A stretch of DNA of 64,000 nt, from positions 1 to 64,000 of the forward strand of contig NZ_JAXIVS010000010.1 in NCBI RefSeq assembly GCF_034259325.1. The letters run 5' to 3'. Under the pieces are notes generated by a model. That model had not been told where the DNA came from and did no database searches. It saw only the letters and a program-made list of their open reading frames with translations. Positions 38,654 through 59,653 of the stretch are shown here, one piece after another; within the stretch, counting starts at the first letter, position 1; every line of letters begins with the position of its first letter. This DNA comes from Hyalangium ruber (GTDB taxonomy: Bacteria > Myxococcota > Myxococcia > Myxococcales > Myxococcaceae). Made by a program: the position numbers and the translations under genes.

Positions 38654-39808
38654 ATGTCGTCCCTGTCCTCCGAGCCCCCCTCCTCAGAGGTGCTGCTGAG
38701 GAGCGGGCACACCTCCTACGAGTTCGTCCGCTGGCTGGGCCCTGCCCGCCACGGCGAGCTGGTACTGGCCCGTCGCCACTACTCCGAACGCTTCGGCGGC
38801 TACATCGTCATCAAGCGCCCGCTGCCCGCCGGGGATGACGAGGCGCGGCAGCGGCTGTTGGACGAGGCCCGCCTCACCTCGCAATTGCGCCACCCCAGCA
38901 TCCTCTCGGCCCTGCACATGCGCGGCTCGGACGACGCGCCCCACCTGGTGCTGGAGCATGTGCCGGGCTTCCGTCTGGCGGCGCTGCTGGAGGCCTCCGC
39001 GCGGGCCCGCCATCCTTTCTCCGAGGCCTTCGCCCTCTATGTCGCGTCGGAGGTGGCCGACGCCCTGAGCCACGCTCACGGCCTGAGCGATGAGCACGGG
39101 CGCCAGCTGGGCGTCGTCCACCGCGATGTCACCCCGCACAACATCCTGGTGAGCGAGCACGGCGAGGTGAAGCTCATGGACTTCGGCGCCGCCTGGTCCC
39201 GGCTCTCCGGACGCGTGGGCAGCGAGGGGGACGCGCTCCAGGGCAGCCTCGCCTACGCCGCGCCCGAGCACGTGCAGCACACCGCGCTGGACGGGCGCGC
39301 CGATCAGTTCTCCCTGGGCATCGTCCTGCTGCAGCTGCTCACCGGCAGGCACCTCTTCGAGGGCGCCGAGCGCTTCGAGTCCCGGCAGCGCAACCCGCGC
39401 ACCCCTCCGGCCTCCACCACCCAGCTGTGTGCCCGGGAGCTGGCCTGGCGCATCCGCACCTTCTCGGTGGCGGAGCTCGAGGCCGCCACCCGCTCGGTGC
39501 CCGCGGCGCTGCTGCCCCTGCTCCAGCGCGCCCTCGCCCCGGACCGGCTGGAGCGCTTCGACACCTGCGCCCAGTTCGCGCGCGCCCTGCGCCACCAGCT
39601 GGTGGCCCTCGGCGAGCCCTTCGGCCGGCACGAGGCCCTGGCCGAGCTGGCCACCCTGCGCTACGTGTCCCTGCGCGTGGCCGCCGGCGAGGCCCCGGAT
39701 GACGCGGTGCGCGAGCGCCTGCTGCCCGAGCCCGGCCCTCGCTCCGCCCCCCGAGTGCTCGCCAGTCGCCGGTCCGCCCGGCTGAGGGGAGCCCCTCGCC
39801 GCCGCTGA
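38654..39808 (+). CDS. Cytoplasmic Ser/Thr protein kinase
   Basis: 384 aa. Kinase domain at about 18-310 with IVIKRPLP (catalytic Lys), HRDVTPHN catalytic loop, LMDFG and the APE-like AAPEH segment, so it is predicted active. The Gly loop is loose (LGPARHGEL). The C-terminal 70 residues are Arg/Ala-rich with no membrane segment, so unlike many myxobacterial kinases it is soluble. Divergent from the XRE regulator gene. Substrates unknown. Confidence 0.88.
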   Translation: MSSLSSEPPSSEVLLRSGHTSYEFVRWLGPARHGELVLARRHYSERFGGYIVIKRPLPAGDDEARQRLLDEARLTSQLRHPSILSALHMRGSDDAPHLVLEHVPGFRLAALLEASARARHPFSEAFALYVASEVADALSHAHGLSDEHGRQLGVVHRDVTPHNILVSEHGEVKLMDFGAAWSRLSGRVGSEGDALQGSLAYAAPEHVQHTALDGRADQFSLGIVLLQLLTGRHLFEGAERFESRQRNPRTPPASTTQLCARELAWRIRTFSVAELEAATRSVPAALLPLLQRALAPDRLERFDTCAQFARALRHQLVALGEPFGRHEALAELATLRYVSLRVAAGEAPDDAVRERLLPEPGPRSAPRVLASRRSARLRGAPRRR

Positions 39809-54053: not shown

Positions 54054-56861
54054 TCAGCTTCGGATGCTCGAGCGCTGAAGGTATTCGCCCAGCTCGCGCA
54101 TCAACCGATCCGCCATGTCCCGGGCGGTGGGCAGCCAGGCCACCGTGAAGCGGGCATCCAGACCGGTCCGCCGGATGCGGTCCAGCCACTGGTACGCCAC
54201 CCGCTCCGAGTAGCCGGCGATGAGGGCCGCCTCGTGCAGCAGGGAGTATTCCCGCATCAGCCAGGTGCTGAAGGTGATGGGGTCGTCCGAGCCCACGGCG
54301 ATGGGCACCGGTGGCGGCGCATTCCCCTGGGGCTCCGGCGGGTTGAGGCGAAGGATGGGATGGTTGCGCAGGTCCAGCAGGTCGCCGATCAGCAGGTTGC
54401 TGGAAGGATTGATCTCCACCACGAGCCCCCGGATCTCCACACCGCGTCGCAGCGCGTTCTGAACGGAGTAGAGCGCCGCCACCTCGGAGGCATCCAGGGT
54501 GATGTCCACGGGCTCCTGTCCGCGCTGGAAGACCTGCTCGTCCTCGCGGTAGCGGAGCAGGATCTTCCGAACCATCGGGAAGTAGCGAATGTGCTCGGGA
54601 TCGAGGGTGAGCACCGCGCGAGCGAACGCATCCAGGCTGCCCTCCGCCCGGACCCTCCCGATCGGGGCGCAGAAGAGCTGGTGCAGCACATGGTGGACCT
54701 CGGCCAGCACCTGCGGCTCGTAGCTGTGCCGGAAGATGCTACTGGACAGCTCGCGGATGCGGTTCTCCACCTGCTCCGGCCGGCCGGGAGGCGCCTCCGC
54801 GCGGAGCTCGGGGGCGATGCGGTAGCTGCTGTATAGCCGCCACTCGAAGATCAGGTCCCACAACCAATCCTCCGCCGTCATCATCACTGAGCCGGACGAC
54901 TCCGCCCAGAGACGAGGCTCCACGCCAAGCGCCGTGGCGTGGCCCAGCCGTCCCCCGGAGCGGGTCAGCAGGTACTGGATGCATTCGAAGATGCGTCGAA
55001 GGCCCTCCATCAGGTGACGGAAGTCCTCGCCCACATGGGCCGTCAGGCGCAGCGGTGGCGGCGAATGGCGACCCTGCCAGGCGGCGGCGGTCGTCGCGGC
55101 TAGGTTCGCCTCCGCTTGGACGTAGCGATAGAGGGGGACCATCACCCAGGTGGGCTCGCCCAGCTCGTAGGAGGCCACGTCCAACCCTCGCAGGAGCCAC
55201 AGCACCGAGGGCACGTTGCGCACCAACTCCACCATGGCCCGGGCGCGCACCGCCTGGTTCTCGAAGAAGTCCGCGTAGCGGCCCCCCGGCCGCAGCAGAT
55301 CATCGGGCCGGGGCTCGGCATGCGTCCGACGGTCGCCCGCGGGCGGCACACCAGCAGCCCACAGCCTGCCCGGGTCATGCTCCTTGATGAAGTGGATGAG
55401 CACGCCGAACTCAGGCTCGCGCCGGCCATGCCGAGGCGCATCGGTCGTCCCAATCACGTGCTTCCACGAGCGGGTGAGCGTCCAGAGCTCCTCTGCCAGC
55501 CCATACGAGCTGAGCGCGGGGCCAATGCGCACCTCCAGGGCGGAGAGGTGCTGGGACCGCCCCGCCACGTGGAAGGACACCTCGGCGCGCGCGGCATACA
55601 GCGGCTTGCTCGCCCACCGCAGGCGGTCATAGAAGCGGACGAACCACTGCAGGCCCGCGGTCAACGGCCGCTGCACCACCGTGCGGTAGTACACGCACCG
55701 GATCCGCAGCACCTGCCAGAAGAGCCGGCGGAAAAAGGGATCCGCCGAGCCAGGAGAGGCGCCCTGCTCGTGCTCCTCCTGCTCGCACTCCACGAGGTAG
55801 CGCAGGCCCTGGCGCATCAACCATCGCTCCCCTCCGTTGGGAGTGTGCAGCCCCAAGCGGATGGAGATGGGGTCACAGTACCGCCAGACCTCCTCGAGCT
55901 TCTCGATGGGCCGGGACGGCAGGGTGCTGCCCACCGGGTGGAGCTGCCCATAGAGGTCCTTCAGCCGATAGAACTCGGGAAGCTCCGAGTCCCTCCCGTG
56001 CGACAGGGCCTGGATGGCCTGGTACAGCCTCATCAGCCGATAGATGGGCCAGGCGGGCGAATGGCCCAGCGCGTCCACGAATCCCTGCAGGCGAAGAGAA
56101 GGGATGCTCTCCCGGCGGATGCAGAACTCGGCGAGCACGCAGCGGACCACGGCGGCGGTCAGCACCCAGCTCATCATCACCTCGCCTGTCTCGAACGGGA
56201 GGCCGGGGCTCTCCAGCTCCTTGTGCGAGAGGGTGGGGTCGGCCAGCCTCGCCAACAACGAGGCCCAGAGGATGGAGAAGTCCATGCCCGCGCCCACGTG
56301 GTGGTGGATCTCCGCGGTGCCAGTGTCCACCAGCCTGCGGAGCAGCAGGGGCGGCTCGACATCCACCTGGGAGGGTGCCGGCTCCACGGGCATGGAAGAG
56401 AGCAGCAGGTCCTCTGGGAGCGCGAACGTGAGCCAGCGGTAGTGCATGGAAGCCTCGAAGGCGTTGACCTCGAAGCTCTGGAGCACCTCGGTGACGCCGG
56501 AGCGGGGCTCGAGAAAGCTCTGCGCCAGGTTGCGCAGGTAGCGCAGCATGGAGACTGGCTGCAGGGACGAGATGCGTCGGCGTCCCGGCACCTCGCCGAA
56601 CCAGAAGAAGTTGCGCGCGATGATGAGCCTGTCCAGGGACCAGCCGCTGGCGTGCTCCGACAGGGACTGCTCGCACTGCTGCCAGAGCGCGCGGGTGGGT
56701 TCTCCCCTCCGGGGGTCGAGCTCCGGGTTGAGCTCGACCATGGCGCTGCGAAACGCCGTCAGGCTGACCAGCGGATAGCTGGCGATCTCGGAGCGGACAT
56801 AAGCCTCGGGGACCCGTCTGGGCGCCAGGGTGGCGCTGGGAGGCGTATGGGGACCGCTCAT
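54054..56861 (-). CDS. rdrB: RdrB-like adenosine deaminase of a RADAR defence system
   Basis: 935 aa, far larger than housekeeping adenosine deaminases (about 350). ADA-like catalytic motifs are spread out: TAEIHHHVG (His186-188) for the HxH metal site, LTAHVGED with His609 and Glu612, RLGHATALG with His641, EINPSSNLLIGDL, and VGSDDPITF with Asp859/Asp860. The order HxH, HxGE, GHA, SDDP is that of ADA proteins. In RADAR, RdrB assembles into large shells and deaminates adenosine or adenine nucleotides/RNA to inosine when phage infection is sensed. ATG 56861 overlaps the rdrA stop by four bases. The call is motif- and context-based. Confidence 0.82.
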   Translation of the reverse strand: MSGPHTPPSATLAPRRVPEAYVRSEIASYPLVSLTAFRSAMVELNPELDPRRGEPTRALWQQCEQSLSEHASGWSLDRLIIARNFFWFGEVPGRRRISSLQPVSMLRYLRNLAQSFLEPRSGVTEVLQSFEVNAFEASMHYRWLTFALPEDLLLSSMPVEPAPSQVDVEPPLLLRRLVDTGTAEIHHHVGAGMDFSILWASLLARLADPTLSHKELESPGLPFETGEVMMSWVLTAAVVRCVLAEFCIRRESIPSLRLQGFVDALGHSPAWPIYRLMRLYQAIQALSHGRDSELPEFYRLKDLYGQLHPVGSTLPSRPIEKLEEVWRYCDPISIRLGLHTPNGGERWLMRQGLRYLVECEQEEHEQGASPGSADPFFRRLFWQVLRIRCVYYRTVVQRPLTAGLQWFVRFYDRLRWASKPLYAARAEVSFHVAGRSQHLSALEVRIGPALSSYGLAEELWTLTRSWKHVIGTTDAPRHGRREPEFGVLIHFIKEHDPGRLWAAGVPPAGDRRTHAEPRPDDLLRPGGRYADFFENQAVRARAMVELVRNVPSVLWLLRGLDVASYELGEPTWVMVPLYRYVQAEANLAATTAAAWQGRHSPPPLRLTAHVGEDFRHLMEGLRRIFECIQYLLTRSGGRLGHATALGVEPRLWAESSGSVMMTAEDWLWDLIFEWRLYSSYRIAPELRAEAPPGRPEQVENRIRELSSSIFRHSYEPQVLAEVHHVLHQLFCAPIGRVRAEGSLDAFARAVLTLDPEHIRYFPMVRKILLRYREDEQVFQRGQEPVDITLDASEVAALYSVQNALRRGVEIRGLVVEINPSSNLLIGDLLDLRNHPILRLNPPEPQGNAPPPVPIAVGSDDPITFSTWLMREYSLLHEAALIAGYSERVAYQWLDRIRRTGLDARFTVAWLPTARDMADRLMRELGEYLQRSSIRS

Positions 56862-59653
56862 AGCTTGATGCCCCGCTCCCCCTCGGTCTCCAGGTCCCCC
56901 ACGGTCTCCAGCCACTTGTCACAGGACTGGTGGAGCCAGCCGCGGAGGAAGCGGGCGCTGAAGCCCCGGCTGGTGCGAGCCGCCTCCTGATAGGCCTGGA
57001 AGGTTCGGGAGCGCTCCAGCACCTCGATCACCAGCTCGCGCCGACGTGCTTCGATGAAGGGGTTGTTCTCCTGCCAGATGCTCTTCCAGAGGGAGACGGG
57101 GAACTTCTCCTCCATCTCCTTCAGCAGCCACTCATGATTCGTGAGGAAGGGAGGTGGCAGGAACTCCGGGTGCAGCATCAGGGGCAGGGTCTGCTCGAGC
57201 CAGAGGCGGGAGATCCACAGCGTGTCATAGCCACCGCTCTGCTCCCGGGCCCTCGCGAAGAGATTCTCGACGCGGGTGGCGACCGCCCGCTGGTAGTTCG
57301 GGAGCAGCTCCTCGGCATCGAACCTACGAGGCGGCAACGTCTCGCCCGGGACCTTCTCGCTCGCCTTGCCCGGGGGCACCACTTCGGTGAGCTGCGCCCA
57401 GTCCCACCTGCCGCGATGCTCGCTCGCGACCGAGCAGACGTTGTCGATCCACGCGGCCATGACGAGGTTGAAGCGAGCTTCCGCGAATTCCTTCTGGACG
57501 AGCTGGTCACCCGCGGGCTGGAAGAGCTTCGTGGTGCGGTGAAGGAAGGCCCTCCATTGAATGACGAAGATGGAGAAGTCGATGAAGGTGTCCCAGCTGG
57601 GAGGCAACCACCAGAAGTCGAGTTCGGTGAGCTGCGAGGGCTGCAGCAATGCCTGATGCACGGTCACCACCAGCTCGGGAGCGGTCTCGAGCGGGATGAA
57701 CGAGACGTTCATCACCCGCCCTTCCTGGGTGAGCACCAGCAGATCGTGCAGCAGCATGAACCAGCCCGCGACCGCCGGAGGCAGCGGCACCGCTCTGCCA
57801 GGTTTGTCGAGATCGTGCAGCTCGAGGATGTCGTCCTGGAAGTGCCGCAGGTGCAGCTCGGTGCGCAGCAGGGGGTACTGCTCGGTGCTCACCAGCGGGT
57901 GTCCTTCGACGCTCTGCGGAGGATGTGTGCTGGGAGCATGCCTGTCCGGCATCTGCCTGCTCCATTGGGGGTTCCACTCCAACACGTCGGACAGGGTGGT
58001 GCGCTTGAGCTTGCGCACGGGCTTGCCCGTGAGGTCCAGGACGACGCGGTTCAGGGTGTTGCGACGCATGATGCGGTTGAGGAGCTGCTCACTGGCCCAG
58101 GCCGGTAGCTCGCTCTCGTCGATGGCGGTGCGCAGCATTCCCTCGGCGACGTGGATGACCCGCTCCGCACAACTGGGGCATGGCACCTTGGCGTGGTCCA
58201 GCGTCTTCTGGCACTGCTCCTTCTGCTGGTGCGCGGCCTTGAGCGACTGCCAGAGATCCAGGGCGGTCCGAGCCGACAAGGTCAGGGCGAGCCTGGCCGC
58301 ATAGGTGAAGATGGGCCCATCCTGCTCCGCGCTCCCCGTGCGGGACTGGCCGTCCGCTCCCTTCGCCCTTTGTTCGCCCCGCCCGTTCTCCGCCGATTGC
58401 TCTCGCAGGACGTCGAGGTACTCCGCTCGTACCAGGTCGCCGAGCCGCCCTCGGACATCGAAGAGGTCCGCGAAGTACTTCAGGTTGGGTGAGGCCTGGG
58501 TCCTGCCAGCCAGGTAGAGATCCTTCAGGAAGTCCGCGAGACACTTCGTGTCCTGGGCATCACCGCCGGCCAGGATGGGCGCGGCCCGGAACTCCCAGGC
58601 GGCCCTGGGGGTGACCGACGCGATCTGGATGCGATGGATGGGAGGAAGCACCCGGCGCATGGCGGCGGCGGCCTGGCGGCGGGCAATGGAAAGGGTCTCT
58701 TCTCGCGCCTTGGTCCCGAGCGGCGCGTGGCCGGACGAGGACAGCTCTGCCTGGAAGGTCCGCTCCAGGAAGAGCTGGAACTCGGCGCGCCCGGCGGCGA
58801 GGACGAACCAGAGCCTTCGACTGGCCACCATCCGCGTCAGCTTGAGGATGAGGTGCAGGTGCTGGATGCTGCGATCGACGTTGTCGATGGGCAGCACCAG
58901 CAGGACCCTTTTGTTCTCGCTGCCCTGACCGAAGCGCCGCGCGGCCAGGAGGCTGGAGACGGCATCCATGGCCTTGAAGAAGTTCTGGCGGAAGGTGGCG
59001 TAGATCTCCGCGGCCTTGATCTGCTGATCCGCGCGCTGGCGGGGATCCTGTCCCTGCGCCTGGATGTCCTCCCACATGAAGGTGGCATCCCGGACGAGCT
59101 TGTCGATCTTCCCATAGGGGTCATCCAGCCCCTCCTCGAGGAGCGAGGGAGGAGCCCATCGCTCCCGTCCTGGGACATTGCGACCGGAGTCCAGCGCATT
59201 GCGGACGCGGACCAGCAACGTGGCCAGCAGGTTGGCCTGCGCTGGGATGGGCTCCATGTCGAGGGCGTCCAACCAGACCAGGCGCTGATGGAGCTCACCG
59301 AGCTTGGTGCTCAGCAGCGAGAGCCGGGTGGGCTCCTTCTGTGGCTCGACCTTGAGGAACTCGTGGGGGACACGCAGGGCGTAGGAGGCCGACAGCAGGA
59401 TGGTGGTCTTGCCAAAGCCCCGGTCTCCGGAGACGAGCGCGCTCGTGGCGAGCTGCTCCTCCTTCTCCTGGTGCTGGGGCGAATCGCCCGACACCGCCGT
59501 GCCGGAGGCCGAGTGCAGCCAGGTGATGAGCTCTTCCAGGGCGTCCTGGGTGGTCGGGAGGAGATCGTGCCACTTGAGCGCCGTGGCCTCGGGCCTGGGG
59601 CCCCGCTCGGTGCCAAACGCGCTCCGGGGCGAGCTGCTCGCAGTCGGATCCAT
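56858..59653 (-). CDS. rdrA: RdrA-like P-loop NTPase of a RADAR defence system
   Basis: 931 aa. Walker A is SGDRGFGKTT (Lys82) and the Walker B-like segment is RVLLVLPIDNVD (Asp257), followed by the WFVLAAGRAEF sensor-like strand. A Cys cluster (C481, CPSC at 492-495) suggests a zinc site. The C-terminal half is helical and unassigned. Known RdrA proteins are about 900-aa AAA-type NTPases that form rings and work with RdrB against phage. The gene order rdrA-rdrB with a four-base overlap fits. ATG 59653 follows GGAGGAGG; the longer frame would include an extra 23 residues. Confidence 0.82.
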   Translation of the reverse strand: MDPTASSSPRSAFGTERGPRPEATALKWHDLLPTTQDALEELITWLHSASGTAVSGDSPQHQEKEEQLATSALVSGDRGFGKTTILLSASYALRVPHEFLKVEPQKEPTRLSLLSTKLGELHQRLVWLDALDMEPIPAQANLLATLLVRVRNALDSGRNVPGRERWAPPSLLEEGLDDPYGKIDKLVRDATFMWEDIQAQGQDPRQRADQQIKAAEIYATFRQNFFKAMDAVSSLLAARRFGQGSENKRVLLVLPIDNVDRSIQHLHLILKLTRMVASRRLWFVLAAGRAEFQLFLERTFQAELSSSGHAPLGTKAREETLSIARRQAAAAMRRVLPPIHRIQIASVTPRAAWEFRAAPILAGGDAQDTKCLADFLKDLYLAGRTQASPNLKYFADLFDVRGRLGDLVRAEYLDVLREQSAENGRGEQRAKGADGQSRTGSAEQDGPIFTYAARLALTLSARTALDLWQSLKAAHQQKEQCQKTLDHAKVPCPSCAERVIHVAEGMLRTAIDESELPAWASEQLLNRIMRRNTLNRVVLDLTGKPVRKLKRTTLSDVLEWNPQWSRQMPDRHAPSTHPPQSVEGHPLVSTEQYPLLRTELHLRHFQDDILELHDLDKPGRAVPLPPAVAGWFMLLHDLLVLTQEGRVMNVSFIPLETAPELVVTVHQALLQPSQLTELDFWWLPPSWDTFIDFSIFVIQWRAFLHRTTKLFQPAGDQLVQKEFAEARFNLVMAAWIDNVCSVASEHRGRWDWAQLTEVVPPGKASEKVPGETLPPRRFDAEELLPNYQRAVATRVENLFARAREQSGGYDTLWISRLWLEQTLPLMLHPEFLPPPFLTNHEWLLKEMEEKFPVSLWKSIWQENNPFIEARRRELVIEVLERSRTFQAYQEAARTSRGFSARFLRGWLHQSCDKWLETVGDLETEGERGIKL

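Follow-up and report, generated by a model that had tools for sequence, protein, structure and literature searches.

The closest described relatives of the locus analysed here are the RADAR systems of E. coli, C. rodentium and S. suis (PMC9994260; PDB 8fnt-8fnw and 8hr7-8hrc), in which two adjacent genes encode RdrA, with an AAA+ fold, and RdrB, with an adenosine-deaminase fold. RADAR assembles from an RdrA heptamer that docks on a dodecamer of RdrB. E. coli RdrB converts ATP to ITP and is stimulated by its partner RdrA, which hydrolyses ATP (PMC9994260). D221 and D222 (Walker B) and D253 (sensor 1) of E. coli RdrA are counted among the conserved features, and the mutant systems tested carried RdrA K82A or RdrB E501A (PMC9994260). 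RADAR was first reported as an RNA editor, as stated in the introduction of that paper. The same RdrAB core is accompanied by SLATT on plasmid pAT1 of Aureibacter tunicatorum and by RdrD in E. coli Z1323CEC0015. In addition, an adenosine-deaminase fold that converts ATP to ITP in phage defence is found in Cad1, a CARF-fused adenosine deaminase of type III CRISPR systems; unlike RADAR, Cad1 is activated by cyclic oligoadenylate through its CARF domain and has no RdrA partner (PMC11645235). Among the papers searched, none joined RADAR, RdrB and myxobacteria.

A RADAR-type gene pair in Hyalangium ruber

We analysed a 64,000-nucleotide stretch of DNA from the predatory, soil-dwelling myxobacterium Hyalangium ruber (hereafter the window), which lies on contig C10 of a 10.8-Mb genome. 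As the first-pass annotation of this DNA had reported, the window contains two overlapping genes; both lie on the minus strand with intact reading frames. The motifs it had named (HHH, TAHVGED, RLGHA and SDDP) were all found in the translations, as was the Walker A motif GDRGFGKTT (Table 1). The two genes stand in the same order and have similar sizes as in the RADAR systems of E. coli, C. rodentium and S. suis. The motifs are not chance occurrences, since H186, H188, H609, E612, H641, D859 and D860 are invariant among 31 RdrB homologues and an RdrA homologue adjoins RdrB in nearly all related loci examined.

Table 1 Positions of the features discussed, in the window unless a locus is named
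Feature	Position	Strand	Basis or conservation
rdrA-like gene, AAA+ ATPase, 931 aa, first of pair	56858..59653	-	Translation; intact ORF
rdrB-like gene, adenosine deaminase, 935 aa, second of pair	54054..56861	-	Translation; intact ORF
ATGA, rdrA stop and rdrB start, 4-base overlap	56858..56861	-	Read off translations
RdrA Walker A GDRGFGKTT, residues 76-84	59402..59428	-	G79, G81 and K82 invariant in 27 RdrAs
RdrA N258 (E. coli Walker-B acid D222)	58880..58882	-	N in 14/14 of clade, D in 23/23 others
RdrA R289 (E. coli sensor-1 D253)	58787..58789	-	R or H throughout clade; outside mostly D, variable (H, N, Q, K)
RdrA R462, candidate sensor-2 arginine	58268..58270	-	Invariant in 27-sequence alignment; R in nearly all reference RdrAs
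RdrA CxxC (C492, C495), with C481 in cluster	58169..58180	-	CxxC only in window, L042 and L043
RdrB HxH zinc ligands H186 and H188 (HHH, residues 186-188)	56298..56306	-	Invariant in 31 RdrBs; E. coli H152/H154
RdrB H609 and catalytic E612 (TAHVGED)	55026..55037	-	Invariant in 31 RdrBs; E. coli H498/E501
RdrB H641 (RLGHA)	54939..54941	-	Invariant in 31 RdrBs; E. coli H530, same 32-residue spacing from H498
RdrB D859 and D860 (SDDP)	54282..54287	-	Invariant in 31 RdrBs
Protein-kinase-like gene	38654..39808	+	PADLOC PD-T4-6 kinase models, 1e-42
Membrane accessory beside rdrB, up to four predicted TM segments	L046:9770-10894, L054:9923-11020, L053:5833-6381, others		
Second membrane-protein family	L042:3581-4177, L024:4753-5679, L060:2967-3578		About 200 aa in L042 and L060
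rdrA, rdrB and SLATT_2 gene, Fibrobacter-binned MAG contig	L055:3898-10269		DNVDRS motif in RdrA
Two genes preceding rdrA, Myxococcus sp. RHSTA-1-4	L044:2813-4036		
VanZ-family gene, Cetobacterium somerae plasmid	L081:9224-9655		

Pfam gave only a sub-threshold adenosine-deaminase match to window RdrB. The PADLOC RdrB models matched it at 2e-34 and NCBIfam RdrB at 3e-41, yet with 142 bits where the cut-off is 800. RdrB of E. coli, whose structure is solved, was matched at E 3.5e-26 (phmmer), and a profile of the 31 RdrB relatives reached E. coli RdrB at 3.6e-57 and ordinary adenosine deaminases at 2.6e-8 or weaker. The AlphaFold model of window RdrB (pLDDT 86.9, pTM 0.90) aligned with RdrB 8fnv at Z 30.8 over 696 of 770 residues, spanning residues 26..908 of the model and hence the whole protein including its insertions, against Z about 24 over about 310 residues for plain deaminases. 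This match places an ADA barrel in the predicted fold of the 935-aa protein, one of the two features on whose presence the first-pass annotation had staked its reading. Cad1 aligned with window RdrB at Z about 23 over the deaminase core only (about 330 residues). The deaminase site is complete, with the four zinc histidines and the catalytic glutamate of E. coli RdrB (H152, H154, H498, H530 and E501) all present and the spacing of residues 609, 612 and 641 equal to that of E. coli 498, 501 and 530.

Window RdrA gave weak results in single-sequence searches, with NCBIfam RdrA at 1.8e-6 and 26.7 bits against a cut-off of 600. Both proteins thus lie far under the NCBIfam cut-offs, in line with the earlier suggestion that the pair is divergent enough to be missed by standard annotation. 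Among PDB entries, a profile of 27 RdrAs adjoining RdrB homologues matched E. coli RdrA best (E 4.4e-7). The predicted structures are of monomers only; that of window RdrA (pLDDT 77) had RdrA chains as its only strong Foldseek matches (ranks 1-20), with VIA Z scores of 18-22 to RdrA chains and 13.6 to the next family, BrxC. In fold alignments, window RdrB is about 19% and window RdrA only about 12-14% identical to the solved proteins, and the C-terminal half of RdrA is poorly aligned and of lower confidence. On the model, homology of the AAA+ half to RdrA is well supported. As for the Cys cluster pointed out earlier in RdrA, one CxxC with an additional C481 is indeed there, but it is not a conserved feature, the CxxC being shared with only the two closest RdrAs of the alignment. 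A zinc-binding Cys cluster was rejected because of this confinement to three close RdrAs.

The RADAR assignment is borne out by sequence and fold, by the order of the genes and by the residues of the deaminase active site, and we conclude that the window pair is a RADAR-type RdrA-RdrB pair distant from known RADAR. The RNA editing that the first-pass annotation attached to it is contested. If RdrA threaded RNA to RdrB, which would then deaminate adenosines in transcripts, the locus would match the first report of RADAR, and we keep this alternative because other structures of RdrA rings, PDB 8hra and 8hrb, carry titles that describe an RNA-loading state. Nevertheless, we regard it as unlikely: no robust RNA editing was found in infected cells, and in vitro hairpin RNA was not deaminated whereas mononucleotides were completely converted, so that the reported activity is conversion of (d)ATP to (d)ITP instead (PMC9994260). 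The RdrB fold, moreover, is that of nucleoside and AMP deaminases. By analogy with E. coli RADAR, window RdrB is more probably a (d)ATP deaminase than an RNA editor.

Changes at the RdrA ATPase site

The most unusual point of this locus, absent from the first reading, is that Walker B (D to N) and sensor 1 of RdrA are changed throughout the clade to which the window pair belongs. Compared with E. coli-type RADAR, window RdrA has asparagine in place of D222 and arginine in place of D253; the E. coli numbering (D221, D222 and D253) was counted off a profile alignment to E. coli RdrA, and the residue roles follow PMC9994260. Across 37 RdrAs, position 258 is asparagine in every member of the window clade and aspartate in every other sequence, the latter including RdrAs of E. 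coli, Aliivibrio, Pantoea, Rhizobium, Cetobacterium and Aureibacter and of both other pairs of the same genome. The D-to-N change occurs once in a tree built without that column. The sensor-1 change is the weaker point, as this residue varies outside the clade too. The first Walker-B acid is kept (D257, E. coli D221), as is D260, and R462 would correspond to E. coli R377.

In AAA+ proteins, replacement of a Walker-B acid by its amide with Walker A intact usually leaves ATP binding without efficient hydrolysis. The sequences of the window clade predict an RdrA that binds ATP and whose hydrolysis is impaired or rebuilt, and the Walker-B D-to-N and sensor-1 D-to-R/H changes suggest a protein that acts mainly as an ATP-bound switch or scaffold. 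Since the ATPase site is required for defence in E. coli RADAR (PMC9994260), an RdrA with impaired hydrolysis would differ from it in a substantial way.

Two other readings bear on the same residues. The pair could be a fully canonical RADAR whose RdrA hydrolyses ATP, for example through D260 or another residue, with a neutral D-to-N change and divergence in sequence only. The retention of D257, D260, Walker A and R462, together with two intact genes and an intact deaminase site, agrees with such a system. However, the changed site is the second Walker-B acid, counted among the conserved catalytic features (PMC9994260), sensor 1 is changed too, and neutral drift is not expected to hold asparagine in every clade member when RdrA identities within the clade go down to about 40%; we therefore consider this alternative credible but doubtful. 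Alternatively, the pair could be a RADAR remnant that has degenerated and no longer functions, as the missing catalytic Walker-B acid and sensor 1 might indicate. This is very improbable, because neither reading frame is disrupted, no residue of the deaminase site is missing and the Walker-B motif in its altered form is strictly conserved across many species.

A mostly myxobacterial clade with changing neighbours

Judged from the sequence trees, the window pair belongs to a distinct, mostly myxobacterial RADAR clade. In the RdrB tree, the window protein groups with that of Archangium lansinium (99/96) inside an 18-row clade (100/100) apart from E. coli-type RADARs, and the main groups agree between the RdrA and RdrB trees. 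When genome contigs were scanned, a single-protein query returned nothing and an alignment query returned matches. RdrB homologues were found in 31 of the 195 genomes of the phylum and RdrA in 22 of the 96 genomes of the family; relatives with a RADAR pair include Archangium, Corallococcus and Myxococcus. A scan with the motif LP[IV]DNVDRS turned up more loci of the clade, among them the Fibrobacter-binned MAG contig of L055 and a locus that gives one Corallococcus genome its second copy. In L055, rdrA is split into two ORFs, possibly by a frameshift or an assembly error. An apparent RdrA-RdrB fusion in L054 (a 1867-aa ORF) was rejected: this ORF is a GC artefact in the wrong frame, and the true RdrA, with its DNVDRS motif, lies elsewhere in that locus. 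The H. ruber genome itself carries two more RdrAB pairs, of another clade, at about 138-145 kb of C3 (L039) and about 372-378 kb of C2 (L040). The RdrAs of L039 and L040 have the usual Walker-B DD, and their called ORFs, with untrimmed starts, are longer (1224 and 1159 aa).

The window pair is flanked by an esterase-like hydrolase, a GDSL lipase, a LytTR/histidine-kinase pair, an astacin-like protease and a MoxR ATPase. The first two of these adjoin the pair as had been claimed. In the relatives examined, where they served to look for an empty site, their homologues lie apart from each other, in no common neighbourhood and unlinked to RADAR, so the two are probably bystanders. Among the nearby genes scanned, the only one with a PADLOC match was a protein-kinase-like gene at a distance of about 15 kb, which probably belongs to the numerous Ser/Thr kinases of myxobacteria and is not a defence gene. 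The window locus lies outside any recognisable defence island. A search for carriage of the pair on phage or viral contigs gave no match. Foreign origin by base composition was also considered; G+C contents of 66% (rdrA) and 68% (rdrB) are only slightly lower than the 70% of the window and are not decisive.

No SLATT or RdrD gene lies beside window rdrB, in agreement with the earlier remark that an RdrC/RdrD-type membrane accessory is absent at this locus, and the two accessory proteins described below were not found in a search of the H. ruber genome. In contrast, many clade relatives carry a membrane accessory gene. In most Corallococcus, an Anaeromyxobacter MAG and UBA5297, the gene directly after rdrB, convergent or co-directional with it, encodes a membrane protein of about 365-475 aa for which up to four TM segments are predicted. 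This protein has no Pfam, NCBIfam or PADLOC match. Some of its homologues lie downstream of second-clade RdrAB, at a distance of about 3.3 kb, in three g19 genomes; others are found away from RADAR. Identification of the clade accessory proteins, including this roughly four-TM protein, as RdrD was rejected for lack of a significant pairwise match. A second membrane-protein family, with no family match above cut-off, is encoded upstream of rdrA, divergently or co-directionally, at two clade loci and a Planctomycetaceae locus. Among the clade relatives, L055 has rdrB immediately followed by a SLATT_2 gene, and NCBI also annotates a SLATT-type protein beside the Aureibacter pair. In Myxococcus sp. 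RHSTA-1-4, rdrA is preceded by genes for a 251-aa two-TM protein and a 152-aa nucleoside 2-deoxyribosyltransferase-like protein, and the latter may be an additional component that acts on nucleotides. A plasmid of Cetobacterium somerae carries a VanZ-family gene after its RdrA-RdrB pair.

These surroundings bear on whether the pair, although derived from RADAR, is no longer defensive and serves as a housekeeping or developmental complex of nucleotide metabolism in myxobacteria. The window clade is present in most Corallococcus genomes searched, several copies lying at one syntenic place and others elsewhere, and this, like the position outside a defence island, fits a housekeeping role. However, RdrA is patchy in the family, the clade loci lie at different places in different genera and the membrane accessories change between loci, which together look like defence-gene turnover and make a housekeeping role decidedly unlikely.

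A possible switch in RADAR immunity

Taken together, the locus is probably a RADAR-type anti-phage operon of a mostly myxobacterial clade, with RdrB as a (d)ATP deaminase shell and the RdrA ring mainly as an ATP-bound switch or scaffold. In the proposed mechanism, the zinc adenosine-deaminase shell of RdrB would respond to phage infection by turning ATP and dATP into ITP and dITP, which would starve or poison replication, and an AAA+ ring of RdrA docked on RdrB would sense infection and raise RdrB activity. Unlike the ATP-hydrolysing RdrA of E. coli, the clade RdrA would do so mainly as an ATP-bound switch or scaffold, its hydrolysis being impaired or rebuilt. Points against this explanation are the low RdrA identity with its poorly aligned C-terminal half, the need for the ATPase site in E. 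coli defence, the lack of a recognisable defence island and the variability of sensor 1 outside the clade.

RADAR is already known; what is new is the conserved Walker-B substitution in a distinct clade, and it is worth specialist attention. The clade extends RADAR to lineages overlooked by curated models, and membrane accessory genes turn over around its constant RdrAB core. As a natural clade with a fixed Walker-B asparagine, it is a ready comparison for the role of the RdrA ATPase cycle, binding versus hydrolysis. We tentatively suggest, at somewhat under an even chance, that the whole clade has abandoned canonical ATP hydrolysis by RdrA while keeping ATP binding and a complete deaminase, so that RdrA would be an ATP- or dATP-bound switch or scaffold gating RdrB without a motor cycle. 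If true, nucleotide binding would be separated from hydrolysis in RADAR immunity.
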